Assembly: GCA_002887195.1 (NCBI GenBank)
Contig: PJAB01001348.1
Location: 1-15,163 of the forward strand
Direction of reading: 5' to 3'
Length of the DNA: 15,163 bases
Source of the DNA: Chrysochromulina parva
Lineage: Eukaryota > Haptophyta > Prymnesiales > Chrysochromulinaceae
The position numbers were made by a program, and so were the translations under genes. Under the pieces are notes generated by a model that did not search any database, was not told where the DNA came from, and saw nothing but the letters and a program-made list of their open reading frames with translations. How positions within the stretch are numbered: the first letter of the stretch is position 1; each line of letters opens with the position of its first letter. This document shows, in pieces, positions 1,549-15,163 of the stretch.

Positions 1549-4500
1549 TCACCCCGATCGTTGCTGTGCCCGCTCCATTTCCGCCTGTCGGCGGGCGTCG
1601 CTCTCGGCTTGGCGCGCCTCGCGCAGCAGCTCGGCGACGCGTGCCTCAGCCTGCTGCGCCTCGGCGCGCGCTTCGCTCGCGTCGTTCTGGGCCTTCTGCA
1701 GCGCCGCGAGTAACTCGCTCTGATCGGGCGTCCGGCACGAGTGGAAGGCAGGCGGCAGTGGGGCGCTCGTCGCTGGCTTCGGGTGAGGGTGAAGGGCAGG
1801 CGGCAGTGGGGCGCTCGGCGCTGGCGGCCGCCAGCGCCCCTCCTGATGCATGCGGCACGCGAAGCGCGCGGCCTCACGAAGCCCACTAATGAAGGCGCCC
1901 GCGACGGTGGCCGGATGGGCGCGGCACGTGGCTTCGCCTGCCCAAAGAAGCGTGTCGTCCCAGAGAGGTTCGGCCATCAAGTCGTAGTCGCGGCTGGTCG
2001 CGCCAAGGGCGACGTGCGAGTAGACGCCGCGCGCGTAGGGGTCCTCGTCCCAGCGAGTGACCACCTGCTGCGTGGGCGCCGGCACCGCATCGGCACCGAA
2101 GATGCCGCGCAGGTATTCGAGCGTCGCCTCGACCGCGTCCTCGTCGCGCGTGGGAGCGCCATCGCGGCACGCGGCGCGCCCCGCATGCAGGACAAGCAGC
2201 ATCGGCTGGCCCGTGCACCGCTGCAGGTTCCAAAATTGGAAGCCCTCGCCGCGCCGTTTGGACGTGGGCGCGCAAACGCCCCAGAAATCGCGTCGCCCCT
2301 CGAGGTCCTCCCAGAAAGCATGTGGGAAGAGCAGCAACACCTGTGGGGAAGAGGGTGGGGCGCCGTGGTGAGCACCTGCATGCAAGGCCATCGTGACGGA
2401 ACTCGTCCTGTGGGAAGAGCAGCAATACCTTGTTGAGCGCGCCGAAGCCGAGCCGATCGATGGCACTCTGCTTACGCGGTGGCAACGGCGGGTCGAAGCG
2501 CACCATGCCCGCCTTGAGCACGCCCAGAGGCAGCGTCACCACCACCGCATCCGCATCCATACTGCTCCATGCCGCCGAGGCGGGTGGGGCGGGTGGGGCG
2601 GCGGGTGGGACGGGTGGGGCGGGTGGGGCGGCGGTAGGTGGGGCGGCAGGGGCGGTGGGTGGGGCCGCAGGGGCGGTAGGTGGGGCGGCAGGGGCGGCAG
2701 GGGCGGCAGCCGATGCGACGACCGATGCGGATGAGCTCGCGTCGGCGACGGGTGCAGTGGCGACGGGTGCAGCACTGATGTCGCTGGTAGCCAGGGCAGT
2801 GTCGGCAGCGTCTGGCGGCGCGGCTGGCGATGGCGCTGGCGCTGGCGCGGGCGCGGGTGCGGGTTCGGGCGCCGTCTTGGGCGCAGCACTCGTCCTGCTG
2901 TACTTGACCTGAACGCCGTTGGGCGTCCTCTCGATTGCATGCACGACGTGCCCAAAGCGCACGTCAAGGCCATTGGCCACCTTTTGGAGCAGCCCACCGT
3001 ACCCATCGGGCAGCAGGTAGTGGCCGCCGCCAAAGTCGAACTCATCATCGGCGTCCCACCAGCGGTTGGAGAGCGAGGCGAGCACTGTGCCGTTGGCATA
3101 CTCGAGGTTCGCCCAGTGCCAGTTCAGCAGCTGCGCGGGCAGCGGCAGCGGCGCCTCCGTGTCCTCGGCATCCTCCTCTGCAAACGCTGCCTCGCGCGCC
3201 GCCTTATCCGCGGCGGCCAGCCCACGCGCTTCCTTGCCGCTCGCGTCACCGCCGATGCGCTGCATCTCGCCGCGGCCGAGCGCTGGAAGCTGTGGCACCG
3301 CCGGTCGACTCATTGAGCGACCTGCGCTGTCTGCGGCGGCGCTGATGCTGCGGCCATTCGCAGCGGCGGGTGCGCCCGCGGCGGCGCCCGCCGAAGTCGC
3401 GGTTGCTCCGGCGCGATGAGCACTCGACACGATCGCGGGCGCCGCCTTCGGCAGCACAGGCGCGCCGCCGTTTGGCGGGATGTTGACACGCAGCTTCGCA
3501 TGGCACGAGGCGCAGGCCGTCTGCACGACGCATCCCTGCGGAGGGCAATCCACCAGATGCAATCAGATGCAATCAGACGCAATCGGATGCAATCAGACGC
3601 AATCAGACGCAATCAACGCACCTGCGGAGGGCAATCCACCTTGAAGCGAAGGCTGGTGCCACAGCTGGTGCATGCGCACATGAACGTCCGACGATTGGCC
3701 GCGCCATCAGCGGCAGCGGAGGCCGCCGCGGCGGCGGCAGCAGCGGCAGCAGCGGCGGCGGCAGCGGCGGCAGTAGCGGAGGAGCAGCAGGGCGCAGCGG
3801 GGGCGGCAGGGGCCGACGGCGCAGCCGGAGCCGGCGCAATGGTGCGGCCATTGGCAGCAGCGGCAGCGGCGGCGGCGGCGTAAGCGGCGGCCGCGTAAGT
3901 AGCGGCAGCAGCAGCGCCGGCAGCGGCGGCAGTAGCGGGAGCCGCAGCGGCCGGGTTGGGCGCAGCGGCGGCGGCAGAGGCCGACGGCGCAGCCGGAGCC
4001 GGCGCAATGGTGCGGCCATTGGCAGCAGCGGCAGCGGCGGCGGCGGCGTAAGCGGCGGCAGCGTAAGTAGCGGCAGCAGCAGCGCCGGCAGCGGCGGCAG
4101 TAGCGGGAGCCGCAGCGGCCGGATTGGGCGCAGCGGGGGCGGCCGAGGCCGACGGCGCAGCCGGAGCCGGCGCAATCGTGAGCGTAGTAGGGTCGGCGGT
4201 GGGGGCATCCGTCGGAGTGGGAGCTACGGGAGATGCGAGCTCGGAAGATGCGAGCTCGGGAGAGGGAGCTACGGCGGTGGCTGAGGGAGCCTCGGCAGTT
4301 GCGGCAGCTTCCAGTACGTCTCGAGTCCACGCGGGGGCACCTCCACCCCCAGTGCTCACTACGCCATGCGAGGCTATGCCGTGCGAGGCTGCGGCACTTG
4401 CCATGTCGACGTCGACGTCGACCTCGTCGGCCGCAGGCGATGGCGGGCACGAGGGCGGCGGCGCCGTATCGAGCGGCGCCGTATCGGGCGGCAGCGGCAG

Positions 4501-7205
4501 CCCGCTCGCTACGGCGCTCGCTGGCGGCTCGGCCAGCGGTGGCAGACTCGAGGGCGGCGGCACGACCGCTGCGTGCGGCGATGCGCTCGGCGGCGGAGGG
4601 GTGGCCGAGCAGCACTGCACCGCGCAGCGGAAGCAGACGTCGAAATCACACGGCGCGCAGCTGAAGTGGCGCGAGCCCGCAGCCACAATGAGGCGGCAGC
4701 ACGTCCCGTCGCACTTGAGCGCCTTGTCCTGCGATGCGCTCACTTGGAGCCGATGGCCGTTGGGGCAGAACCGCGGCGCTGCCTGCGCCGCCGCTGCCTC
4801 CTGTGCCTCCAGTGCGTCGGCCGCCGTCTTGGGTTGCGCGACCGGCGCTGGCGGCGGCGCACGGGACGGCGCTGGCGGCGGCGCCCGGTACGGCGCTGGC
4901 GGCGGTGCCGCGGCCTGCTGCGAGGCCAGCGGCGCGGGCTTGGCGGCGGGGATGGCGATGTCGAGCGTGGAGCCACAGTGCGAGCAGGAGGTGGTCACCT
5001 TGGGTGCCGTGTGCGAGAGCGGCAGGCTCAGGGACAGTTGGGTGCTGCACTGCGCACACTTGAAGAGGAAGGTGCGCGCTGTGCCGAGCGCACCGGAGGC
5101 GGAAGGGCCGAGCGCTGTGCCGAGCGTTGGCTGCTTTGCCGACGACGCCGCCTTCTTGGGTGGCGGCGCCTCGCGAGCGCCGTCGCGAGCGGCCCCCGCT
5201 GGCCGCTTGCCTGCGCCCTGTGCGCCGCGCCCGCACGTGTGCGCGACGTGCTTGCCGCGGCAGGCATCGCACCCGATGAGCGCCTTCTGCTCTTGATAGG
5301 CGACAAAGGGCAGGCAGTCCCTCACATGCGCGTGCGGTTCCCAGGTCGGCTCGAGGTAGCCGCGCCACTTGACCTGATACTCGAGACGGCTGCCGCCGCC
5401 GCTCGTGCGCGCACGCCGCTCACCTAGGATCGCCTCGACCTCGTACTCGTTGCTATCCCCGATGGGCCCCGGCGCGTGCTGCCCGCTCATGCTCTCATCA
5501 TCATCGTCATCATCGAGGCGTGTGTGGTCCTCGAGCTTGGTGATGCGTGGGCCGGCGGCCGCAGTGGCCGCCGCGCCGCCGCCGCCCAGCCCGACGCCGC
5601 GGCCCGCACCGCTACTCGCAGCGCCCGCGCGCCCGCCGGCATTCTCCTTGCCCTCTGCGTCGGCCTCCTCCTCCTCGCGTTTGCGGGCGAGCTCCTCGAG
5701 CAGGACGGTGCGGCATTCGGCGGAGTACGCGCGCGCTGCCTCCTCTGCGGAATCAAAGATCTGGCCGACGCGCCTGATGAGGGGGGCAATCAGCATGCAA
5801 TCAGCATGCAATCAGCATGCAATCAGCATGCAATCACGGTCGCGGAATCAAAGATCTGGCCGACGCGCCGGCGCTTGCGCCCGTAGCTCGACCCGTAGTT
5901 CGAATCGATGATGAAGGCCTCCCATTTATCGCCCTTGCCCGTCTGCGACACCACGACGCCCTCGAAGCCCGAGAAGGCCTTATGGGAGCGCACGAGCACC
6001 CGTGTGGCGTCCCCCTCTGGCAGGCAGCACAGTCGGTGCCTGTCGAGCCGATCGATGGACGCGAAGCAGCGGCCGCACAGCTCGCACGCATAGGCGGAGA
6101 TCGCGACCTCGCCCTCGGAGATCACGAGCGAGCTACCGCCCAGGACGGCGCTCCGTGGGCCACTCGCGTCGTGGTGAGCCCGTCGCGCGGCCTCGTCTTG
6201 GGCGAGCTGCCCCTCGATGGTGCTGTACCACTCCTTGCGCTCGCGCAGGATGGCCCGCAGCCGGCTCCCGAGCGACACGTCGGCGAACGGCTCGGGCAGC
6301 GCCTCGGCCTTGCACATGTCGAGCATCGTGTTCCATTCGGCCTCGAGCGCCGTGTCGAGCGCATCGGGCACCGGCTGCCCCGTCGGCGTGTAGATGCGGC
6401 ACTTCGGGGTCAGGCGATGCATGCGCGAGCGCGTCTGGCGCGCGATCATGGCGACCGGGTTGCCCTCGGTGCCCGTCACGACCATCGCGCCCAGGTCCAC
6501 CGAGCCCATACCCATGGGCGTCTTCACATTCAAGGTGTGCACACGCCCGCCCGTGCGCTGACGCGCCTCGAGCACGATGACTTCGTGGCCGAGCATGTGG
6601 AGCTGGCGAGCCGCCGCGAGCCCCGCGGCACCCGCGCCGATGACGATGACGCGCCGACGCGCGGGGTTCGCCGTCGCCGCCGCCGCCGCCTTTGACGACG
6701 ACACGGTGCTGCGGCCCGCTGCAGGTAGACAAGGGTGGTCGTCGAGGACGCCAAAGTTGAGGTAGCCGTGGTGCGTCAGGCACTCGTACACGGCGGACGC
6801 ATCGGCCGCGTCGGCGCTCGTCGCGACGGACCGCTGGAAGGACGAGTCGAGCCCCTTCACCGACTCGGCAAATGTCAGGAACTTGGATGGATTCTTTGCA
6901 GCGCGGCCGAGCATGTGGTTACGGATCGATGTCATCCGCGAGGGCTTACGCCGTAGCGCGTCGGGGATCGCGCAGCAGGTGCGCTCAAAGTCTGCGAGCT
7001 CGTACGGCTGCAGGCCGAGCTCTCGGGCGGCAACGTCGTCCGTGCGCTGCGGCCTCGACTTGCGCTCATCTTCCATGTGGGCCAGTGCGGCCAAGATGAG
7101 AGGGTTGTCGTCGTTGTACGTGCGCTTCTCGCGCTGGCGCATGCTACGACCCCCGGCAGAGGAATCGTCGCCCTCTTCGTTGGCTGCTCGCTTGGAGGTG
7201 GACAT
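1549..7205 (-). CDS. KDM1: LSD1/KDM1-like histone demethylase with chromodomain insert, 4 exons
   Basis: Join complement of 7205-5869, 5773-3622, 3535-2429 and 2340-1549; about 1,795 aa. Family role: FAD-dependent oxidative demethylation of histone lysine in the nucleus. Visible order: SWIRM about 80-155 (IRNHML, HGYLNFGVL); FAD Rossmann fold 185-225 (VIVIGAGAAGLAAARQL, LEARQRTGGRV) and DLGAMVVTG at 237-245; CCHC-like finger 374-394; AP2-like motif about 410-470 (FDSAEEAARAYSAE); acidic stretch; chromodomain 554-608 (EYEVEAIL, YQVKWRGY, PTWEP); Cys-pair modules 614-626, 684-713 and 782-834; Ala-rich repeats; Cys-pair module about 1143-1175; amine-oxidase second half 1298-1692 (LLNWHWANLEYANGT, TLPLGVLK, LGFGALNK, WAGEATCRAHPATVAGAF); coiled coil 1740-1792. 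Lys1532 matches the active-site lysine of human LSD1 (Lys661, from memory). The start is the first ATG; the frame is open 45 bp upstream but with only a GTG. Splicing restores all frames exactly. FAD and catalytic motifs look intact. Confidence 0.87.
1747..1826 (-). repeat. 48-bp in-frame tandem duplication near KDM1-like C-terminus
   Basis: ggcaggcggcagtggggcgc occurs at 1747 and again at 1795, 48 bp apart, with the match continuing through about 30 bp with one difference. It encodes SAPLPPALHPHP then SAPLPPAFHSCR just after the catalytic domain, before the C-terminal coiled coil. No GT or GC donor fits the repeat boundaries, so this is a coding duplication and not an intron. Confidence 0.85.
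2321..2428 (-). repeat. 20-bp direct repeats bounding intron 3
   Basis: tgtgggaagagcagcaacac at 2321-2340 and tgtgggaagagcagcaatac at 2409-2428 match 19 of 20 and are 88 bp apart, equal to the intron. One copy is the first 20 nt of the downstream exon, the other the first 20 nt of the intron. No tandem array lies between them. The interior holds GATGGCCTTGCATGCAG, which resembles the 3' end of the dioxygenase intron. Confidence 0.93.
2341..2428 (-). other. KDM1-like intron 3 (GT-AG, 88 nt, phase 0) after catalytic Lys codon
   Basis: Minus strand: exon ends CTCAACAAG, intron begins GTATTGCTGCTC and ends CTTCCCCACAG, next exon GTGTTGCTGCTC. Removal joins GFGALNK to VLLLFPHAFW, matching the continuous amine-oxidase core of LSD1. 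An earlier AG (TTGCATGCAG, G at 2376) would give a 53-nt intron and shift the frame, so it is not the productive site. Confidence 0.9.
2575..2880 (-). repeat. Pro/Ala-rich low-complexity insert in amine-oxidase domain
   Basis: This stretch encodes about 100 residues of the KDM1-like protein (about 1379-1487), made of APAPAP and PPTAPAA repeats with a Ser/Ala-rich middle. It splits VQVKYSRTS from DADAVVVTLPLGVLK, a surface loop in LSD1 enzymes. On the plus strand the DNA is a run of GGGTGGGGC and GGGGCGG tracts at about 2580-2700, with clear G-quadruplex potential on the strand that is template for this gene. Confidence 0.85.
3535..3640 (-). repeat. 20-bp direct repeats flanking 10-bp array (intron 2)
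   Basis: The perfect 20-bp sequence cctgcggagggcaatccacc lies at 3535-3554 and 3621-3640, 86 bp apart, equal to the intron length. Between them (3556-3615) are six 10-bp units, sense TGATTGCGTC or TGATTGCATC, with one CGATTGCGTC variant. Sense orientation and unit are those of introns 1 and of the dioxygenase intron. Confidence 0.95.
3536..3621 (-). other. KDM1-like intron 2 (GT-AG, 86 nt, phase 0)
   Basis: Minus strand: exon ends CCTCCGCAG, intron begins GTGCGTTGATTGCG and ends TTGCCCTCCGCAG, next exon GGATGCGTC. Removing 86 nt joins two frames precisely to give KVDCPPQGCVVQTACASC, linking the Cys pair CTSC to CASC in one Cys-pair module. The 3' splice site is itself a copy of the upstream exon end, so donor and acceptor share CCTCCGCAG. 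Confidence 0.88.
3800..4180 (-). repeat. 168-bp tandem repeat coding Ala-rich 56-aa units
   Basis: Within exon 2 of the KDM1-like gene, a 168-bp unit occurs twice in full and once in part. The marker string gccggagccggcgcaat ends at 3840, 4008 and 4176, exactly 168 bp apart. Each unit encodes TIAPAPAAPSASA, then NPAAAAPATAAAAG, then long Ala runs broken by TYAAAAYA and ending NGR. Copies are nearly identical, implying recent duplication. The period is a whole number of codons, so copy-number change keeps the frame. Confidence 0.92.
5747..5869 (-). repeat. 28-bp direct repeats flanking 11-bp array (intron 1)
   Basis: A perfect 28-bp repeat, starting gcggaatcaaagatctggcc on the plus strand, occurs at 5747-5774 and 5842-5869, 95 bp apart. 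Between the copies (5786-5836) is an 11-bp array. In the sense of the host gene it reads TGATTGCATGC, four full copies and a partial. The two flanking copies both encode RRVGQIFDSA, so the unspliced DNA shows that peptide twice and the spliced product once. Confidence 0.95.
5774..5868 (-). other. KDM1-like intron 1 (GC-AG, 95 nt) with repeat array
   Basis: Intron read on the minus strand: exon ends CGCCG, intron begins GCGCGTCGG, intron ends CCCCTCATCAG, next exon GCGCGTCGG. The reading frame changes by exactly what a 95-nt removal requires, giving KRRRVGQIFDSAEEAARAY across the junction. A strict GT alternative (5864 to 5761, 104 nt) also keeps frame but deletes Val-Gly-Gln from the AP2-like motif, so I prefer GC-AG. 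Retention would end translation within about 10 codons, at the TGA in the array. Confidence 0.75.
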
Positions 7206-7498
7206 GACGCGAAAAGCGAAGCAGGCCCGCGTCTGTGAGATCGCCGACACAAGGCAAGGTCAGGTCAAGTCAAGGCAGACTTGACTGACCGCCACAACCG
7301 AAAATCAAGTTCCAGAAAAGGTGCTCCGGAGGAGCGGCACGCACGTGTGCGACGAGATCGATGGTCACTCAACATTCATGTGAAGATCCGGTGTTCACAC
7401 GAACTCACTCCCCGAAGCGCGAGAGGGACACACGGCTGGCGCACGGCTCTCCCGCCAAGCCATTCCTGCCCTCAGGCGACACCAGCGCAACTAGTCGC
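7206..7498. promoter_or_regulatory. Divergent promoter region of KDM1-like and TMEM107-like genes
   Basis: The 293 bp between the two start codons must hold both promoters and 5' UTRs. An inverted repeat, AGTCAAG (7268-7274) and CTTGACT (7280-7286) with a 5-nt loop, sits near its left end. The same CTTGACT motif recurs in front of the ubiquitin-like gene. I see no clear TATA box. The regulatory role is inferred from position only. Confidence 0.55.
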
Positions 7499-8058
7499 AT
7501 GGGGCACCACGACTTCGTCGTGCCCATCCGATTCCTTGCACTCGTCGGCCACTTCTTCTCGGCGCTGCTCACGCTCTACGCCATCAAGGACAACTGCATT
7601 GTCGCTCTGCCTTTCTTGTACGAGCAATCAGATCTCGACAGTCTGGTCGGCTCCGCTAGCGCCGCCCTCGTCCTCTGCTTTTGCGTGCTGGCCATCAATG
7701 CTGTGAGCTTCTTTGGCGGCTTCTCAACGTTTGACCTCCCGATCAGCATCTTCCGTGAGTTCGCAAAAGTGCCTCCCCAGGCATCAGCCAGCGCCGCCGC
7801 AGCGTCGCGGCGCCCCTTCCCCGAGCCGCCACCCGTTGCGCGATCGCGCTCGAGGCTCACAGTCCCGTCCCGTATCGTGTCCCTGGCGCAGATATCTTCA
7901 TGCACACCTTGGAAAGCATTCTGCTGTCGATTGTGGTCATTGCAAAGGGCCACTACTTGTACGTGTGGTTCATCGTGGGCATCGGCAACGGGTTGCAGCT
8001 GCTCGCGGAGGTCTACACGTTCACCACCGTGATGGTGCTGGGTAAGAGGAGGTGGTGA
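7499..8058 (+). CDS. TMEM107: TMEM107-like ciliary transition-zone protein, 2 exons
   Basis: Join of 7499-7754 and 7892-8058; 140 aa, the same length as human TMEM107 (from memory). Four hydrophobic segments at about 7-27, 50-72, 90-106 and 109-130. The N-terminus VPIRFLALVGHF, the loop Asp-Asn-Cys-Ile-Val-Ala-Leu-Pro and the motif FFGGFSTFD match the family, whose members carry VPSRFL, IQACLPL and FLSGVSMF at these positions. The second exon supplies HYLYVWFIVG and ends in a basic GKRRW tail, as the vertebrate protein ends in Lys-rich residues. TMEM107 works in the MKS module of the ciliary transition zone, so the host should build cilia or flagella. ATG 7499 is preferred to an in-frame upstream GTG-type extension because it aligns with the family start. 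Confidence 0.85.
7755..7891 (+). other. TMEM107-like intron (GT-AG, 137 nt, phase 1)
   Basis: Exon 1 ends ATCTTCC, intron begins GTGAGTTCGC and ends CCCTGGCGCAG, exon 2 begins ATATCTTCATG. Without removal the frame loses its hydrophobic pattern; with it, transmembrane segments three and four and the stop appear in order. It has no tandem array and no direct repeat longer than about 6 bp, so it contrasts with the repeat-bounded introns of this window. Confidence 0.88.
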
Positions 8059-8703
8059 GGCTCATGTGGCGACTCGGTCTCGCTGTGAGCCGCTCTCTAG
8101 CGTGCGCGCTGCCGCTGGTGCGGACGTCGCCCAGGTCGCACGCGCGCGCGACTACCCTATTCGACGTTTCAGATGCCATGTCAGCCGCGTTCACGTAGCA
8201 GTTAACGCAGCAGTCTACACCCTTAGGAGCCATGTAGCAGCATTTTGAGATGTTGCCCTTGAAAGCAAATAATACATTACAAGTCTTGTGAAGTCTGCAT
8301 GGAAGTCTGCAATTGTGTATTCGTCCATTCCCCCACCGCGCCGGGTGTTCCGTGTGAACATGCGACGCTCGAGACCGACGTGTATTTGCAGCGCGTTATT
8401 TGCAGTTTTGCACACACGCCACGTTAACCTCAACGGCCTGAGAGCGTGAGAGGAGACGTGGAGACCGGACCGCGGACCGAGCCGGACGCCGACGGAGAGT
8501 TCACACACGGCCCTGGTGCTGTGGGGCGCCGCCCGGGGCCTCACTGTTTGTGCGGTTCAGCTTCACCTCCTCCGGATGTGCATGGATGTGTACTTGACTT
8601 GACTTGACTGAACTGGACTTTGCCGTCCGTTCGTTCGAGGGAGGACAGGGAGGTGCTCGGCGAGAGCGTCAAGCCTCCCCGCCGACTCTCCGACTCTGGG
8701 CAA
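8059..8703. other. Intergenic region and 5' flank of ubiquitin-like gene
   Basis: No supported gene lies in these 645 bp. At 8592-8609 the pentamer ACTTG or its shift CTTGA is repeated, giving TTGACTTGACTTGACT about 95 bp before the next start codon. This echoes the CTTGACT motif in the KDM1/TMEM107 promoter. An AT-richer patch (about 8260-8285) may belong to the TMEM107 3' end. The minus-strand frame at 8544-8215 has no recognisable product. Confidence 0.5.
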
Positions 8704-9546
8704 ATGCCGACGCTGATGATCGACACCGTGTGTGGGATCCCTGCCTTCAAGGTCCAAGTCGGGCCCGACGAAACCATCCGCAGCCTGCAGATCAAGTGCG
8801 CCAAGGCTGCGCACGTCAACACGCTCACCTGGAAGAACATGAAGCTCATCAACAACAAGGAGGACGTCAGAGTGCGCCTGTCCCGCGGCCGGGTGTTCTT
8901 GAAACCAACGGACACGGTGGCCGCCCTTGGTTTGCAAAATGGTTCGCGGCTGATGCTGCACACCAGGAGCAGGCCGCTGATTCCCAACTACAACGGTCAC
9001 CCGCTCGTGATGACGGCACCACTGCCCGTCTACTCCTTTGGCCGAGAAGACTACGACCTTTGGGTGAACGTATGCGCGCCCAATGGGCAGCGTCTGTTTA
9101 AGCTGAAGCTCACCTCCGAAATGAACACGACCAAGGTCCTCTCCATGGCCGTGAAGCAGGCGAAGCTGCGCGGCTTCGGTGACCTCGAGCAGGCGGCTGA
9201 GAACGGAGAGGTGAGGCTGACGCACAAGGGTGTGGAGATGAAGCCGGGCAAGTCCATCTCGGCGTACCACGTGCAGACTGGGCACGAGATTGACCTGCAT
9301 GGTCTCGGGGAGCAGTATGAGCAGCCGTCCTCACCAGCACCTTCGCTGCTGCAACTGCTGCGTCCGGCCAGCACGAGCCACAATCTGCTCGCGCAACTCC
9401 AGGCGATGCCGAGCTTTGCACAGCATGTCGACGAGAGGCGTGCTGCGAGCCGCCCGGCCAGCGCTCGCCGGCCGAGCTCGGCTGGCATGCTGTTGAAGGA
9501 GCGTGCCACGTGGATGCCCGTGGGTGCGAATGAAGCCTTGCTATGA
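8704..9546 (+). CDS. Tandem ubiquitin-like domain protein
   Basis: A 280-aa frame. Residues 1-88 read like a ubiquitin fold: a beta-hairpin start MPTLMIDTVCGIPAFKVQV, then DETIRSLQIKCAKAA as the helix, and DTVAALGLQNGSRLMLHTR as the closing strand region. Residues about 119-205 repeat the pattern: DLWVNVCAPNGQRLFKLKL, TTKVLSMAVKQAKL, then GVEMKPGKSISAYHVQTGHEIDLHGL. The C-terminal 70 residues are Ser/Ala/Arg-rich with RPASARRPSSAG and probably disordered. No diglycine terminus follows either fold, so this is more likely a ubiquitin-like adaptor than a conjugated modifier. An in-frame stop at 8605 and the absence of any other ATG support the start at 8704. The next gene begins 91 bp downstream on the same strand. 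Exact function unknown. Confidence 0.78.
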   Translation: MPTLMIDTVCGIPAFKVQVGPDETIRSLQIKCAKAAHVNTLTWKNMKLINNKEDVRVRLSRGRVFLKPTDTVAALGLQNGSRLMLHTRSRPLIPNYNGHPLVMTAPLPVYSFGREDYDLWVNVCAPNGQRLFKLKLTSEMNTTKVLSMAVKQAKLRGFGDLEQAAENGEVRLTHKGVEMKPGKSISAYHVQTGHEIDLHGLGEQYEQPSSPAPSLLQLLRPASTSHNLLAQLQAMPSFAQHVDERRAASRPASARRPSSAGMLLKERATWMPVGANEALL

Positions 9547-9637
9547 CATGGCGACGTTCATGTTTGCACAGTGGGGATACAGTTGTCGATTCTAAAGTGA
9601 AGCTCTTTTCGCGGCGCGTTGTGTTGAGCACACCGCG

Positions 9638-10686
9638 ATGATGGACGCCCACTTCGCGGAGCCACCAGCGTCGTTGAGCTGCGTCCTGCAGGCGCACGGC
9701 CTCGAGGCGCACCGCCACGCCATCGAGAGCGCCTTGCCGGATGCTGCGGCGCTGCATAAGCGCCTCAAAGCTGCTGGCGTGATAAGGATCGGCCGGAGGG
9801 TGTCGCTCGTTGCCACACTGCTCCGCATCGCAGCAGGCGTCGACGACGATAGCGCGACGCCAGAGGGTCCTATGGACGAAGACGTTTCGTTATCGCACGA
9901 CTCGGCTCCTACCAGTCGCGAAGAGGATCTGGGTAGCGGCGATGGCAGTGTAGGGGTCATGGTCGACGCGCCTTCGAGCAGGGCCAGGGTCGCGGCCGAC
10001 GACACACTCGAGTTAGACGAGGGCGACGATGGTGGCGAGGATGATATCAGCCTCTTCGACGCGAGCCCCAGTTCTCCTGAGCGCGATGATTGCAGCCTGT
10101 CGGAGACTCTGGAGGACTGGAAGGCCATCGAGGTCGACACGGACTCGTGCACTGACGCCGAGGCAGCCGAGTTGGAAGGACCGTCTGAGGTGGTGGCAGG
10201 GGAGGCGGCGGCGCCGCCGAGCACGCCCGCGCTGCGCGACGCGCTCAAGGCGGAGGGCAACGGGCACGTCGCCCGAGGTGACTGGCGCTCCGCGATCGGG
10301 TGCTACCGTCGCGCGCTCTCCATGACCTTCGGGGAGGAGGAGGAGGAGGAGGAGGAGGATCCGGTCGTGCTCGCGGCGCTCTGGTCGAACCTGTCGCTCG
10401 CGCTGCTGCGCGCGGGTGAGGCGGCTGAGGCGATCGCCGCCGCGGACGCCAGCATCAGCGTCCGCCCCGACTGGACCAAAGGTCACTACCGACGTGGCGT
10501 AGCGCTCTTGGACGCCGACTTACCCTCTCAGGCGGCGGCGAGTCTGGGGCGTGCGCGTGTGCTGTGCGAGGATGAGCGGGAGCGTCTCGCGGTCGATGTC
10601 GCCCTCGAGCGCGCCGCCGCCGCGGGCGCCTTCCGCCGTCGCGAGCCTGAGCCATCCACCGATGACGTCGCTGACGAGGCCGAGCC

Positions 10687-10717
<31 letters not shown>

Positions 10718-11926
10718 ATTGGCGCGCGGCTGCGGCTGCGACGGCCGCTATCCGAGGCGCGGCGCACTGTGAAGCCCCTGTGGGCACCGCGCTTCGCACC
10801 GACCGACCCGCGTCTTCGTGAGCACCTTCTGAGCGAAGGGTTCGCCGTGGTGCGCGGCGCCGTCTCGGGCACGCGCCTGGCCGCGCTGCGTGCGGAGCTC
10901 TGGGAGTATCTCGAGCTCGAGACTCCGATGCGGCGCGGGCGTCCGGAGACGTGGGGTGGCGTCTTCAGCGGCCCCGCGCACCTCGGCCTCCTCACATGGG
11001 GAGCCATAGGCCAAGCGACCCTCCAGTGGAGCGCGCGCACCGAGCCCGCTGTTGGCGCTGCTTTCGAGACAGTGTGGGGACTGTCCGGTGGCGACCCCCT
11101 GCTCACCTCCTTTGACGGGCTCGCGCTCTTCCGTCCTCCCCAACTGGACGCCACGTGGCTCACGCGGCCGGCACTCGAATGGCTCCATGTCGACCAAGGC
11201 TCATCCAAGCGTGGCATGGTGGGCATACAAGGGCAGCTGCTCCTGTATGACCAGGACGCGGCCTCGGGCGGGCTGGTCGTCGTCCCAGGCTCACACCAAC
11301 GGCACGAGGAGCTGGTGCCCGAGCACCGGCGAAAGGACTACGTGCGCTTCGATGCGGACGATGCTCGCCTCGATGGCCTAGGGCCGGCGCGCCTCGTGTG
11401 CGCTGCCGCAGGTGACTTGGTGCTATGGGACTCGAGGACGGTGCATGCTTCGGCGGCCTCTGATTGCCTCTGATTACCTCTGATTACATCTGATTACCTA
11501 TGATTAAATATGATTACCTCTGATGGCCTCCCTCATTGCATGCAGGTACATGCTTCGGCGCCGGCGGACCCGGGCGCGCCACTGCCCGCCGACGACGACG
11601 GCCGGCCGCGCCTCGCTCGCGTTGCATGCATGATCTCAATGGTTCCCGCGCTCGAGCACCTTCAAGCTCGCCCAACGCTCGCACGCGAGCGCGTGACGCT
11701 CGTCGAGCACTCGATCACCACCACGCACTGGCCGCAGGACGTACTGCGGGTCTCGCAGGGCCTCCAGGGCTCTGGTGTGGGCGACATGCGACGGCTCTCC
11801 CCCGAAGGACGGGCTCTCGTGCTGGGCGAGCCGTGCCTGGTGCGCCGGCGCTACCGTGCCGTCATGGCGAGTGAAGAGTGCCTTCGTGCCTTTGTTGCCG
11901 ACCATGCAATCAGCGCCCTCCAGTGA
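9638..11926 (+). CDS. SAM-TPR-phytanoyl-CoA-dioxygenase-like fusion, 2 exons
   Basis: Join of 9638-11440 and 11546-11926; 727 aa. Residues 11-63 resemble a SAM domain (LQAHGLEAHRHAIESALPD, then GVIRIGRRVSLVATLL). Residues 65-195 are acidic and Ser-rich. Residues 197-310 hold two to three TPR units (KAEGNGHVARGDWRSAIGCY, ALWSNLSLALLRAGEAAEAI, WTKGHYRRGVALLDADLPSQ), with a Glu run inside. A Gly run (351-360) links to a PhyH-like 2-oxoglutarate/Fe(II) dioxygenase from about 390: DPRLREHLLSEGFAVVRGAV, iron ligands His517 and Asp519 (LHVDQGSS), SGGLVVVPGSHQRH, and distal ligand His603 in WDSRTVHAS; Arg626 may bind 2-oxoglutarate. The substrate is not predictable. The TPR region suggests a protein partner or target. 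The start is the first ATG (two in tandem). Confidence 0.82.
11441..11545 (+). other. Dioxygenase intron (GT-AG, 105 nt, phase 0)
   Basis: Exon ends GAGGACG, intron begins GTGCATGCTTCGG and ends CATTGCATGCAG, next exon GTACATGCTTCGG. Both sides are in the same frame, but the intron contains in-frame TGA, so it must be removed to give the full dioxygenase fold. The exon junction falls between Thr601 and Val602, one residue before the distal iron-binding His603. Confidence 0.9.
11441..11560 (+). repeat. 15-bp direct repeats and seven-unit 10-bp array (dioxygenase intron)
   Basis: gtgcatgcttcggcg (11441-11455) and gtacatgcttcggcg (11546-11560) match 14 of 15 and are 105 bp apart, equal to the intron. 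Between them, 11459-11528 holds seven 10-bp units of the type TCTGATTRCC, including two AT-richer variants (TATGATTAAA, TATGATTACC) and a final TCTGATGGCC. The unit is the same as in the KDM1-like introns 1 and 2, and again in the sense direction of its gene. Confidence 0.95.
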
Positions 11927-12196
11927 GAAATCATCCTCGATCCTGGGGATGCGAGCGGACGCCCGGACAGTAGAAAACTTGCCAACTACAGGCAGCGCAC
12001 ACATAAGCAAGCAAATAGTGAAACAAAAACACAAGCTTGCTGGCCTCTTTCCGTCCAGTAATTATTCGGTAATCAGCGTCTGTGGAAACGCCCCAATAAT
12101 GAAACCCAAAACGTCAAGTCGCCGATTCAGAACCAACCTGATGCATTTTGCCGTGACCGTCTCAAGACCTCCGCGAACAAGCGACAAACGCGCCAT

Positions 12197-12963
12197 ATGA
12201 GCGCGCGAGTTGCATCGGTTTCTCCCGTATCGCCGTGGCAGCAGTACCCGCACCAGACACCGATCTTCGATCGCACCGGCGGATGCCCCACGTACCGTGG
12301 CCTCAATGTGGAGACCTACGGTACGCCACCCTTCTGTGCATGGCCCCCGCGCGCAATATGCATAATTGTAATGCATTGTTGCTCATGTTGTGCGCGCATG
12401 TGCGTGGCCGACCCCGCGCAGGAAGCTTCCTGGCGCCCCTTAATTCGTACCGCATCGAGGGTGAGGACGACGGATTCCCCCGCGTGTCCCAGCCTGCGCC
12501 TTCCCGAGAGGAGCCCCAGCCCATACACGAGCATCAACCCATCCACGGCGAGCCCCATCCGACCCTGGAGCGGCAGCGCTCGACGGAGGTGACCAACTTT
12601 GTCGAGGGAGCCTTCGACGAGATGGACGTAGCGCTCCGCGCTCAGCGTGACGCGGCGCACCACCACCACCACCACCACTCACGACCCACGGCTTCATCTG
12701 TGCACCCGAGTCACTACTACCGGCTGAGTGGCGAGGAGCAGGCGTGGCTCGACCAGGAGTTCGACGCGGAGATGGAGATGGCGGAGGACCACTTCTCGGG
12801 CGAGGAGGCGTCACGAACAGGCTCAATCGATGACCGTGCCGACGAGTGGGAGGAGGAGACGGAGGAGGAGTTCGTGCGGGACCTGCTCGTGGCGCACCCA
12901 GCACTCAATGAAGCCGAGGCCCGCTGGTTGTGGCAGGAGCGAGAGCGCGCCCGCCGAGGATGA
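12197..12963 (+). CDS. Acidic protein with poly-His tract, unknown function, 2 exons
   Basis: Join of 12197-12320 and 12422-12963; 221 aa by splicing. I do not recognise the family. Visible features: a short N-terminus with PWQQYPHQTPIFDRTGGCPTY; a Pro/His/Glu-rich stretch (61-90) with PIHEHQPIHGEPHP; a seven-His run at 121-127; a strongly acidic helix-prone region (145-195); and a C-terminal segment EEFVRDLLVAHPALNEAEARW followed by basic residues, which looks like a small helical module, perhaps UBA- or CUE-like. The ATG at 12197 and the splice sites are predicted. A single-exon model from 12235 lacks an ATG start and reads a Cys/Met-rich N-terminus through the intron. The upstream gene ends 270 bp before it on the same strand. 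Confidence 0.65.
12321..12421 (+). other. Intron of the acidic protein gene (GT-AG, 101 nt, phase 1)
   Basis: Exon ends GAGACCTACG, intron begins GTACGCCACC and ends GACCCCGCGCAG, next exon GAAGCTTCCTGG. Joining gives NVETYGSFLAPLNSYR. The interior is locally AT-rich (ataattgtaatgcattg), unlike the flanking exons. There is no tandem array. A weak imperfect repeat, gcatggcccccgcgcgca versus gcgtggccgaccccgcgca, sits inside it. Confidence 0.65.
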
Positions 12964-13720
12964 GGCAGGGCATCGAAATGACGTCTAGGGCAAGGGATAT
13001 GGTCTTTCCGCGCGGCGTCGGTCTCTGTTCCACAACCGAGAGACAACCGAGAGACTTCCGCGACGTGTCGGTGTGTCCTCACTGTACAGTAATATGTCTC
13101 AGACTGAGAGGTGCAACATGACGCTTTCACCAACAGTTGACACGTAAATCAAGCCCCGGACACAATATCAAAGTACTCAACAGTCGCGCGCGAGCGCCGA
13201 TACGGATATCATTTTCCCTATGCCTATCGTGCCGAGATCGAGTCTATGTGCGCGCGGGGCGCGAAGGCCGAAGCCGCCTAGCCGCGCGGTGCGCGTCGCG
13301 TGGCTAAGGCCGGGCCTAAGCACGGGCCGCGGCACGATGCTTCTCGTGCGGCGCCCCCAGGGCCGGGGGGGCTACCGCGGGGGGCGGAACATACAAGGCA
13401 GAGCGGCCCTGGATATCCCCCCGTACGAGCCAACGAGGGGCGAGGCAGCGCTACCGAGAGTTCACGTCGCGACTCCCCACTAGCTCTACACATGTCACAC
13501 CGCACGGAGCGTCTCTAGGAGTCGTGATGTGCTGTGTTCTCTATAGGGTTAAGTCTCGTAGCCAGTAGAGGTCTCGTGTGTCGCCTGTCGCGTGCCGTAG
13601 ATATCGTCGCGTGTCAAAGACGAGGCCACGACGAGTAGTCAAATAGGAGGCCACGACGGGTACCCGTGTCGCGAGGTATACAGTATGGCGACGCCGTACC
13701 CGGGCCTCACATTCCACACG
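12964..13720. other. Convergent intergenic region with small repeats
   Basis: No supported gene in this 757-bp stretch. It holds a 12-bp tandem duplication near 13031-13054 (caaccgagagac twice), an imperfect GC-rich hairpin at 13276-13310 (arms gcctagccgcgcg and cgcgtggctaaggc) followed by AGGCCGGGCCT, and two copies of gaggccacgacg near 13621 and 13648. Plus-strand frames here lack any recognisable domain. The right end is probably 3' UTR of the minus-strand gene. Confidence 0.5.
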
Positions 13721-13812
13721 CCGTCAAGCCCAGAACTCGACCTCCTTGAGATTGAGATTGAGAGTGAGAGTGAGAGTGAGATCTCCGTCAAGCCCAGAAC
13801 TCGACCTCCTTG
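13721..13812 (-). repeat. 28-bp direct repeats flanking a 6-bp array at the stop codon
   Basis: A perfect 28-bp repeat beginning ccgtcaagcccagaactcga lies at 13721-13748 and 13785-13812, 64 bp apart. Between them the sense strand of the gene reads three CTCACT units followed by CTCAAT units. The layout, direct repeat then short array then direct repeat, is that of KDM1-like introns 1 and 2. Confidence 0.95.
13742..13805 (-). other. Candidate intron (GT-AG, 64 nt) spanning the stop codon
   Basis: Minus strand: GACAAGGAG then GTCGAGTTCTGGGC as donor side; CTCAATCTCAAGGAG then GTCGAGTTCTGGGC as acceptor side. The 64-nt segment is bounded by 28-bp direct repeats. Each repeat contains GTCGAGTTCTGGGCTTGA, including the stop, so protein sequence is the same (EVEFWA, stop) whether or not it is removed. 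Only the 3' UTR changes. Splicing itself is inferred from the resemblance to the other four repeat-bounded introns. Confidence 0.5.
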
Positions 13813-14945
13813 TCGTGATTGGCCAAGCGCACGAGCTGGCAAAAGCTGCCAAGCTGCCGATGGGTCGATCGCCAGCTGTGGTCCATCGCAGCAGCCTCAA
13901 GCGCCTCGAGATCTATAGCTCCACGCCGCAGCGATCGCGGCATCGGGGCATCGATGAACTCGGCGGCGCCACGGCATCGAATCTGCTCGTATTCGGCCAT
14001 GAGTAGCCGCAGCTTCTGCGAGGGGTGAACTGAGGGATGGCACGCGCAGCCTTCTACACGAGGTGCGTCGGAGTCCTCTCCGACACTCGCGAGGTCATCG
14101 AGCATCCCCTCGCAGACTAGGGTCACATTCTGGCTCCGTCGAAGACTTACGGACGACCCTCCCTCTCCCAGCCCCTCGAGCATCCCCTCGCAGACGCGCT
14201 CAAAGCGACCGAAGTCGAAGAGACGCGTAGCCGCCTCGTCGACACGTTCCTTGGGCGCGGCGATTGCGCGATACGCCGCGAACAGGTATTGGACTGCCGC
14301 GCGCACCGGCGGCTCCCAACGACCGTCGGAGGCGCGAAAGCACGTGGCGATCGATCTCGGCAGCAAGCTCAAACCCACGAGTGCTCGGCGAACCACAGGC
14401 GCGTCCGCAGAGTGCGTCGCCTCAAGCTCGCCCACAAGCCAGCGCAGGTACTTTTGGCCTTCCTTCGGCTCGGTGAAGGGCGGCATACGTGCCAGCCGCC
14501 TCCACACTATGCACGTGGTGTGATAGGCGTGCCGCCAGTTGGGTTCCTGAATGCTCTCCATGGGTGAGACAGTCTGCGAGAGCCCGAGCAAAGCAAGCGC
14601 GGGAGCTCGAAAAGCGTGTTCGGGAAGTGTGAGGTAGGCGGCGCGCAGATGCTGCGAACAAGCCGCGAGATGGCCAGCCATCGAAGAATGCAATGGGGCC
14701 GAAGAATGCGATCGCGAAACTGCTCCTTCCTTGTTATCAGGAAGGAGAAGTAGTGTAAAAAGGCGGTGGAGCAGATCCACCGGTAGCGCTTCGAGCAGAT
14801 CCACCGGCAACACGTCGAACACTAGTTCGGGGTCTGCGAGGCACGGCGCTATGTCGACCATTTTGCAGACCGTTGTGGACTGATGATCTCGTTCGTGGGA
14901 AGCGCTGGCGAGGAAGACGTGGTGGCGTTTCATGTACAGGGTCAT
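13788..14945 (-). CDS. Unrecognised protein, probable 340-aa product after splicing
   Basis: The minus-strand frame runs 385 codons from the first ATG at 14945 to TGA at 13788. If the internal intron 14150-14016 is removed the product is 340 aa. I do not recognise the family. Features: DVLPVDLLEALPVDLL at 44-59, encoded by a 24-bp tandem duplication; a helical, Leu/Ala-rich body (90-265) with HAYHTTCIVWRRLARMPPF, GQKYLRWLVGELEAT and RAAVQYLFAAYRAIA, suggesting an all-alpha repeat protein; and a C-terminus LGSFCQLVRLANHDKEVEFWA. No catalytic motif, signal peptide or membrane segment is clear. The frame is open upstream to 15053, but only with a GTG and through a G-rich repeat, so I start at the ATG. 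A repeat-bounded intron covers the stop codon. Confidence 0.65.
   Translation of the reverse strand: MTLYMKRHHVFLASASHERDHQSTTVCKMVDIAPCLADPELVFDVLPVDLLEALPVDLLHRLFTLLLLPDNKEGAVSRSHSSAPLHSSMAGHLAACSQHLRAAYLTLPEHAFRAPALALLGLSQTVSPMESIQEPNWRHAYHTTCIVWRRLARMPPFTEPKEGQKYLRWLVGELEATHSADAPVVRRALVGLSLLPRSIATCFRASDGRWEPPVRAAVQYLFAAYRAIAAPKERVDEAATRLFDFGRFERVCEGMLEGLGEGGSSVSLRRSQNVTLVCEGMLDDLASVGEDSDAPRVEGCACHPSVHPSQKLRLLMAEYEQIRCRGAAEFIDAPMPRSLRRGAIDLEALEAAAMDHSWRSTHRQLGSFCQLVRLANHDKEVEFWA
14016..14150 (-). other. Probable intron (GT-AG, 135 nt) in the unknown minus-strand gene
   Basis: Minus strand: exon ends GGGTCGTCC, followed by a strong donor GTAAGTCTTCG (G at 14150). A good acceptor, TTCACCCCTCGCAG, ends at 14016. 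The 135-nt segment has no stop and is a multiple of three, so the frame is open either way. Its 45 codons are of poorer quality than the flanks (Cys- and Ser-rich) and repeat VCEGMLEGL as VCEGMLDDL, which fits non-coding sequence. Splicing would join GEGGSS to KLRLLMAEYEQ. RNA evidence would decide. Confidence 0.5.
14099..14195 (-). repeat. 19-bp direct repeat around the GTAAGT intron
   Basis: cgagcatcccctcgcagac occurs at 14099-14117 and 14177-14195, 78 bp apart. One copy is in the exon (encoding VCEGML), the other inside the probable intron. Unlike the other introns here, the repeat spacing does not equal a GT-AG or GC-AG intron, so it is a related but different arrangement. Confidence 0.9.
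14769..14816 (-). repeat. 24-bp tandem duplication in coding sequence
   Basis: gagcagatccaccgg occurs at 14769-14783 and 14793-14807 within a 24-bp period, encoding VLPVDLLE and ALPVDLLH in the unknown minus-strand protein. It keeps the frame and contains no splice signals, so it is a coding duplication of eight residues. Confidence 0.85.
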
Positions 14946-15026
14946 GTCCTGTATAGATGCAAAACCTCTGAAAAAGGAGGGCGCCGCCGACAGTGGACTA
15001 CCTACTATCGCGGCGGCCACCTCTGA

Positions 15027-15060
15027 CCCCCCCACCCACCCCACCCACCCCACCCACCCC
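15027..15060 (-). promoter_or_regulatory. G-quadruplex-prone tract upstream of the unknown minus-strand gene
   Basis: The plus strand reads CCCCCCCACCCACCCCACCC and continues with more such runs. The gene-sense strand therefore has at least seven runs of three or more G separated by single T, a strong G-quadruplex pattern. It lies about 80-115 bp upstream of the ATG at 14945, in the promoter or 5' UTR. A pyrimidine run (about 15078-15090) lies next to it. Function is inferred from position. Confidence 0.6.
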
Positions 15061-15099
15061 TTCGCGCACCTACGCGATTTTTTTCTTTCTTCGCGCGGG

Positions 15100-15123
15100 G
15101 ACTCGAGTCGCGCGACTCGAGTC
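15100..15123. repeat. 24-bp perfect palindrome
   Basis: The sequence from 15100 to 15123 is identical to its reverse complement, with two CTCGAG cores around a central TCGCGCGA. Further ACTCG/GACTCG repeats continue to about 15141. It sits upstream of the G-rich tract and the minus-strand gene, so it could be a dimer-binding site, but no factor can be named. Confidence 0.75.
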
Positions 15124-15163
15124 GCGACTCGGTTCGGGACTCCTGTGCTCCGGCACTCGCGCT

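Follow-up and report, generated by a model that had tools for sequence, protein, structure and literature searches.

The contig examined here (C1348, 15,163 bases, the whole of which we call the window) belongs to the 45.07-Mb genome of Chrysochromulina parva, assembled in 2199 contigs, and contains five candidate introns (I1–I5) that are bordered by long direct repeats; I1–I3 interrupt a gene for an LSD1-like demethylase and I4 a gene with TPR and PhyH domains. Sequences related to these introns are dispersed over the genome in two families, A and B, and the repeats that flank their copies behave like target duplications. The introns are in all likelihood introner-like in nature. The explanation that accounts best for the observations overall, and that we consider probable, is that they are introners with unusually long and variable target duplications, the elements probably having been captured as fragments at staggered breaks. 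The features of the window on which this account is built are as follows.

1549–7205, minus strand: LSD1-like gene (SWIRM, amine oxidase and chromo domains), 1795 amino acids with I1–I3 taken out
2341–2428, minus strand: I1, putative intron, family B variant, AAG/GTATTG..CCACAG/GTGTTG, core match at 2359–2384
2409–2430, minus strand: I1 target duplication copy 1 (direct repeat), intron 5′ end
2321–2342, minus strand: I1 target duplication copy 2 (direct repeat), exon side
3536–3621, minus strand: I2, putative intron, family A array, CGCAG/GTGCGT..CCGCAG/GGATGC
3621–3640, minus strand: I2 target duplication copy 1 (direct repeat)
3535–3554, minus strand: I2 target duplication copy 2 (direct repeat)
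3554–3620, minus strand: I2 array, 10-bp units of CTGATTGC type
5774–5868, minus strand: I3, putative intron, family A, GC donor, GCCG/GCGCGT..CATCAG/GCGCGT
5842–5869, minus strand: I3 target duplication copy 1 (direct repeat)
5747–5774, minus strand: I3 target duplication copy 2 (direct repeat)
5786–5836, minus strand: I3 array (CTGATTGCATG)n, 11-bp unit, with matching arrays on other contigs
9638–11926, plus strand: TPR and PhyH gene, 727 amino acids with I4 taken out
11441–11545, plus strand: I4, putative intron, family A-like array, GACG/GTGCAT..TGCAG/GTACAT
11440–11455, plus strand: I4 target duplication copy 1 (direct repeat)
11545–11560, plus strand: I4 target duplication copy 2 (direct repeat)
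11457–11524, plus strand: I4 array, 10-bp units
13785–13812, minus strand: I5 duplication copy 1, holding the TGA stop of the open reading frame 13788–15161
13721–13748, minus strand: I5 duplication copy 2 (direct repeat)
13746–13782, minus strand: I5 array CTCACT/CTCAAT, unit 6 or 12 bp

Removal of I1–I3 yields an open LSD1-like frame and removal of I4 an open TPR and PhyH frame, and homology continues across the joints of I1, I3 and I4 and, as judged by eye, of I2. I1 is located within the amine oxidase domain, where the spliced 218-amino acid piece scores 157 bits against PF01593 and the joint aligns gap-free with human LSD1 at ‘..GFGALNK/VLLLFPHAFWED..’, while I4 interrupts ‘GDLVLWDSRT/VHAS’. 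The two repeat copies are identical at 21/22 letters in I1, 20/20 in I2, 28/28 in I3, 15/16 in I4 and 28/28 in I5, with best border-repeat scores of 19, 20, 28, 13 and 28, respectively. Of 5000 random position pairs in the window, 379 score at least 12 and 218 at least 15, and the score of I4 taken alone is unremarkable against them (7.6%). GT and AG stand at corresponding places of the two repeat copies in I1 and I4, and a GC is paired with AG in this way in I3; I2 carries in its own GTGCGT, and the CAG of its 3′ splice site is supplied by duplication copy 2.

An earlier note on the window had described five introns with border duplications of 15–28 bp, four of them with tandem arrays of CTNAY-like units in the gene sense, and three further introns lacking both features. 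The repeats are indeed found at all five, and the arrays at I2, I3, I4 and I5 (I1 has none), with CTNAY-like motifs on the gene sense strand, CT being lost in some units of I4. I5 is at most a candidate intron: the TGA inside copy 1 would give the same protein spliced or unspliced, so that splicing cannot be read from the frame. Only two of the three ordinary introns were located, by eye, at 7755–7891 and 12321–12421, where the best border-repeat scores are 6 and 7. Assignment of I5 to a dispersed family was rejected, as its array pattern (at most two mismatches) has 21 matches that are mostly plain CTCAAT arrays and of which three are I5 itself; tandem duplication is a possible origin of I5. 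The same open frame contains a second exact direct repeat of 20 bp (14098–14117/14176–14195, spacing 78 bp).

Both families extend far beyond the window. A 91-base query consisting of the I3 array and its flank has at least 81 matches on many contigs, itself included. Family A is made up of CTGAT arrays, many ending in ..CCTCATCAG, and its 3′ end, TGATTGCMTCCCTCATCAG, is found exactly 814 times genome-wide; family B has a 26-bp core, TGCATGCAAGTGCTCACNACGGCGCC, with 141 exact copies genome-wide and no array in most of them. Reversed-letter controls for the A 3′ end and the B core gave 0 matches. After the B core there is usually a run rich in pyrimidines and then CAG; the core is found with CCACAGGT 5–25 bases on at 187 places (control, 0). 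I1 fits the B core at up to four mismatches and I3 the A end at up to three; that I1 falls in a different family from I2–I4 had gone unremarked. By the design of the search, the 141 copies have the B core exactly in common; the copies that were read vary freely in their pyrimidine tract and on the 5′ side. In viral contigs the A 3′ end has 0 matches and the B core is present in one contig (L069).

Manual selection among the first 100 places listed for each family, mostly in contig order, gave 20 copies of A and 58 of B; places already sampled and most close clusters were skipped, and two multimers were added. Almost every copy examined has duplicated flanks of its own (L082 and L103 appear to be paralogs), i.e. 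many similar intron-like sequences occupy different sites in one genome, as in introners. A resemblance of the 5′ part of L103 to the L082 duplication was considered as proof of carry-over and rejected, since the genes look paralogous. In the multimers, a unit of duplication plus B fragment is repeated head to tail, ten times in L109 (C760:16050–16900, 48 bp) and three times in L110 (C1209:2150–2560, 50 bp). A third array type, (CTGACGAACC)n, is seen at L069:4405–4446 and in L070 with a flanking duplication of ∼38 bp (by eye), and has matches on contigs C284, C467, C2020, C2119, C1095 and C176.

Direct repeats flank 45 of the 58 B copies at a score of at least 12 and 38 at a score of at least 15; among 3000 places drawn at random from twenty 10-kb stretches, the numbers are 254 and 169. 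With array letters masked, 11 of the 20 A copies are repeat-flanked (229/3000 random). The duplications of the 45 B copies are 12–46 bp long with a median of 25. At 36 of these 45, an AG at copy 2 has a GT or GC as its positional counterpart in copy 1, compared with 17/45 when the opposite strand is used as control; for GT alone the values are 29/45 and 3/45, so the signal is carried by the GT pairs, and the seven GC-only pairs may be chance. The pair lies at the left edge of the duplication in 28 copies (24 GT, 4 GC), at the right edge in three, where the GT is carried by the element, and inside the duplication in five (2 GT, 3 GC); nine copies have none. In four repeat-flanked B copies (L052, L057, L065 and L081) a splice pair is missing and no acceptor adjoins copy 2; the spacing is divisible by 3 in L052 (45), L057 (63) and L065 (51); the repeated unit of L109 is 48. 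Spaced exact repeats of at least 14 bp, with fillers other than A and B among them, are also in excess in a random 200 kb (L009–L028), with 39 of 108 left after filtering compared with 1.0 in a Markov control, and 22 of the 39 have a spacing divisible by 3. A and B inserts make up part of the 39, and as protein repeats can account for the others, we place no weight on this excess.

The orientation of the copies follows the same pattern. With a codon model trained on 2230 window codons and applied to the emptied site, coding is in sense at 34/36 B copies with a splice pair (27/29 of those with a GT pair) and at 4/9 without; in an earlier, partly overlapping set it is in sense in 26/29 (A, 12/12; B, 14/17). 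As the element carries the 3′ splice site, sense orientation follows spliceability. The insertion itself looks unoriented, with splicing or frame filtering the survivors, and unspliceable copies are few. Restored frames and homology at I1–I4, and sense coding and GT–AG pairing among the B copies, are compatible with removal of the inserts by splicing.

Comparison with related proteins points to gain of the introns. The metagenome proteins P0001–P0009 and P0040 ignore introns, running in and stopping, which makes such protein calls useful for scoring intron presence. Accordingly, I4 is present in 9/9 close alleles, P0001–P0009 (97–99% alike), which end in the read-through ‘HASAASDYL’, whereas the I4 joint is uninterrupted in all 13 fetched relatives of 52–65% identity (P0010–P0020, P0022 and P0023); P0021 (91%) ends before the joint, and P0024–P0039 lie outside this comparison. 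One of the 13, P0013 (575 amino acids), lies on a contig of 1898 bp, which has little space to spare for an intron. The named relatives include the haptophytes Prymnesium parvum (P0014), Chrysotila carterae (P0023) and Emiliania huxleyi (P0052). P0041 and P0042 are continuous through the I3 site, and P0042 also through the I2 and I1 sites (by eye). At the I1 site, 22 of 25 aligned proteins, most of them distant, run through. P0050 and P0051 (99%) start with the I1 read-through ‘MALHA.AHHGAPPS.PQ/VLLLF’ and are filled alleles, while P0043 (98%, cluster of 31) passes the site straight; provided that it does not derive from a transcript, it would represent an empty allele in a very close strain. 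At the protein level, then, continuity of the relatives at I1–I4 and the putative empty I1 allele are as expected of lineage-specific gain.

Within the genome, a search for a second, empty copy of seven loci (of 13 sites built) returned only the loci themselves and three matches of ∼40 bases. The locus L069, from another sample, was compared with the G000 locus L070 as a possible presence/absence case, and this was rejected because both carry the same insertions; their upstream flanking stretch is alike, and the length differences between them, 14 nucleotides (nt) within copy 1 of the repeat and two array units (20 nt), are as expected of intron sequence. The terminal residues of the 91% PhyH-gene homolog P0021, ‘LLLYDQVSATECY’, could be explained by translation continuing into an intron of family A type (GTGAGTGCCACTGAGTGC..), at a position that is intron-free in the window; this candidate is known from the protein only.

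Several observations weigh against the account given above. Thirteen of the 58 B and nine of the 20 A copies have no flanking repeat at a score of 12, and nine repeat-bearing B copies lack a splice pair; L061, L067, L089, L099 and L102, five of these nine, have an acceptor that aligns with neither GT nor GC in the other copy. GC pairs show no excess over the opposite strand, so that the GC donor of I3 is backed by frame and homology and not by the pairing. The spacing of L081, a nested case, is 119 and not divisible by 3. The acceptor at the left repeat edge in 28/45 copies is also predicted by retrotransposition of an excised intron, and selection may imitate it. P0043 is known solely as a predicted protein that could derive from a spliced transcript, and the entries P0010, P0014 and P0023 derive from annotated sources, in which introns may already have been taken out. 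Finally, the selection of copies was manual and confined to the first 100 places listed, and 8 of the 36 strand calls are weak.

In the mechanism that we propose, short dispersed sequences of family A or B would enter exons, staggered exon breaks with overhangs of 12–46 nt capturing fragments of the element, and 12–46 bp of exon would end up duplicated on both sides of the insert. In a minority layout the element would supply GTACGT or similar and the duplication CAG. Insertion would take place in either orientation, with splicing or an in-frame length deciding which copies survive. That the insertion step is such a capture at staggered breaks, and not the work of a transposase with a fixed cut, has in our view about an even chance. 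Only tentatively do we suggest the fuller scheme in which fill-in of exon breaks staggered by 12–46 nt produces the duplication and the ends are joined through pieces of existing introns, the duplication supplying one splice site and no transposase taking part; were it true, nearly any fragment with the other splice site would become an intron at once.

The ends of the B copies bear on this step. The insert is variable on both sides, the core being separated from the repeat by no more than 30 nt in 42/45 copies and by a longer stretch in three. The 5′ side is ragged, starting −5 to 73 nt before the core, and the 3′ side clusters, with 24/45 at 13–19 nt after the core; L050, L052, L057, L064, L065 and L098 are shortened on the 3′ side, yet flanked by like duplications. 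Sequence preference at the repeat edges is not sharp, reaching 0.46 bits at most (38 sites, uncorrected), and GCATGC is not strongly enriched (184 compared with 151 expected). The broad lengths, motif-free edges, extra letters and shortening on either side argue against a transposase with a fixed stagger. As in Daphnia-type intron gain, a repeat of the exon is found at the opposite intron end, variable in length and free of a target motif; the inserted DNA of no fixed family that we read in that model is not what is found here, the inserts being those of families A and B.

The most serious rival to capture at breaks is target-primed reverse transcription, in which an enzyme of the long interspersed nuclear element (LINE) type would copy excised intron RNA, or a transcript resembling a short interspersed nuclear element, into nicked exons. 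LINE duplications are variable in length, and such a process would give variable duplications, ragged 5′ ends and a fixed 3′ end at CAG. The broad duplication lengths, the ragged 5′ and clustered 3′ sides of the B copies and, above all, the acceptor at the left repeat edge in 28/45 agree with these expectations. The six copies shortened on the 3′ side nevertheless bear the same kind of duplication, and the repeat edges show no sharp nick motif; we regard reverse transcription as unlikely, at perhaps half the standing of capture.

A non-autonomous DNA transposon, i.e. an introner resembling a miniature inverted-repeat transposable element and inserted by a transposase with a staggered cut, is an improbable source. 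It has in its favour that most of those introners whose features could be ascertained were classed as DNA-transposon-like (PMC9860276), and some A copies start with CTGATGA and end with TCATCAG, a 7-bp inverted pair noticed by eye. The fixed short duplication of 3–9 bp that goes with introners of this type is not what the 45 B copies show, since their lengths run from 12 to 46; letters intervene between repeat and core, and in B no inverted repeat was noticed by eye, no scripted search having been made. More improbable still is tandem duplication of a piece of exon (AGGT type) or replication slippage with arrays growing inside and no mobile element. AG/GT at the duplication edge is the layout predicted by such duplication (PMC3443670), and the multimers L109 and L110 repeat duplication and insert together, but the inserts of A and B are shared among hundreds of places, and for this reason pure tandem duplication was rejected for these families. 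Old introns with expanded minisatellites and coincidental border repeats can be practically dismissed: tandem arrays are common in the genome (88 in 200 kb), but the border repeats far exceed those of random places and the relatives' proteins are continuous at I1–I4.

The arrays, which the earlier note had counted as part of the intron class and as a possible supply of redundant branch points, are not required by it, as family B has equal duplications and GT–AG pairing and is mostly array-free, a few B copies bearing CTGAT units. The expected orientation bias is borne out: the random 200 kb hold 88 arrays of 6–14 bp, 20 of which contain at least three CTNAY in one direction, and 15 of the 16 with a callable strand are in sense, these being drawn from 7/20 stretches, with seven of the 15 in a single stretch (L016) together with the one antisense call. 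A yUnAy branch site is expected to keep T and A above all. Within 56 arrays, a few of them not of CTGAT type, change rates are 44/434 for C, 45/442 for T, 16/442 for G and 17/440 for A, with 206/2633 in the other columns, and in 17 arrays of the random sample they are 23/153, 19/156, 2/157 and 8/157, with 84/939 in the others. The conserved letters are hence the G and A of CTGA, with C and T varying like other columns, so the pattern of a branch site is not seen. Most B copies, moreover, have a single CTCAC in the core and no array, yet equal splice pairing. The case for arrays as a redundant branch-point supply is weak; they probably grow by slippage in a permissive place, and extra branch points from them are possible.

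Besides the LSD1-like gene and the TPR and PhyH gene, the window contains a TMEM107-like gene and an EF-hand gene; one further frame has a sub-threshold ubiquitin match, and the remaining frames are without a Pfam match. A 21-bp tandem repeat (3.4 copies, 1163–1233) lies directly after the EF-hand frame.

The origin of new introns is a long-standing question, and the two families offer favourable material for it. Of the copies examined, most in family B and roughly half in family A retain a footprint long enough to define the empty site, the copies that look unspliceable provide an internal control for selection, and one intron (I1) appears present or absent among very close alleles. With hundreds of copies, the insertion step, be it by transposase, reverse transcription or break repair, becomes directly testable by strain sequencing and RNA.

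Related systems are on record. New introns of Daphnia pulex were attributed to the repair of staggered breaks (PMC4202315); their repeats are of 4–12 bp (33 cases), and the accessible text mentions no dispersed family. The introner elements of Amoebophrya (PMC7789003) likewise have many copies and direct repeats at intron borders, which differ in being of 3–5 nt and accompanied by inverted repeats of 8–20 nt, in chiefly non-canonical introns. Repeats of up to 30 bp near introns have already been claimed in a survey of splice-site direct repeats (PMC11782384), which found lengths of 4–30 bp (mean 11.4) near 213 introns and read them as insertion footprints; that survey allowed imperfect repeats and covered many taxa, and the part available describes no element families. 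For the break itself, 43-nt 3′ overhangs led to tandem duplications mostly spanning the overhang, arising after fill-in and end joining and similar in size to those described here (PMC8355091), in experimental mouse cells and with no captured element or intron. In the open-access passages searched, no 12–46 bp duplications at introners are reported. Introners as such are already known, Chrysochromulina included: Gozashti et al. 2022 (PMC9860276) describe them in Chrysochromulina sp. (TARA_PON_109_MAG_00232) and other species, and what they have in common with the present families is that similar introns lie at unrelated sites, that target duplications flank them, that splice sites are shared between element and duplication and that the mRNA is mostly restored exactly, as is predicted here. 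The introner duplications found described are shorter, as the earlier note had indicated, being 3–9 bp in earlier families and 4 bp in the Chrysochromulina example, which carries its 5′ splice site and co-opts the 3′ one. The introner-like elements of the present genome, in contrast, have variable duplications of 12–46 bp, mostly the reverse layout, and CTGAT arrays in one of the two families.

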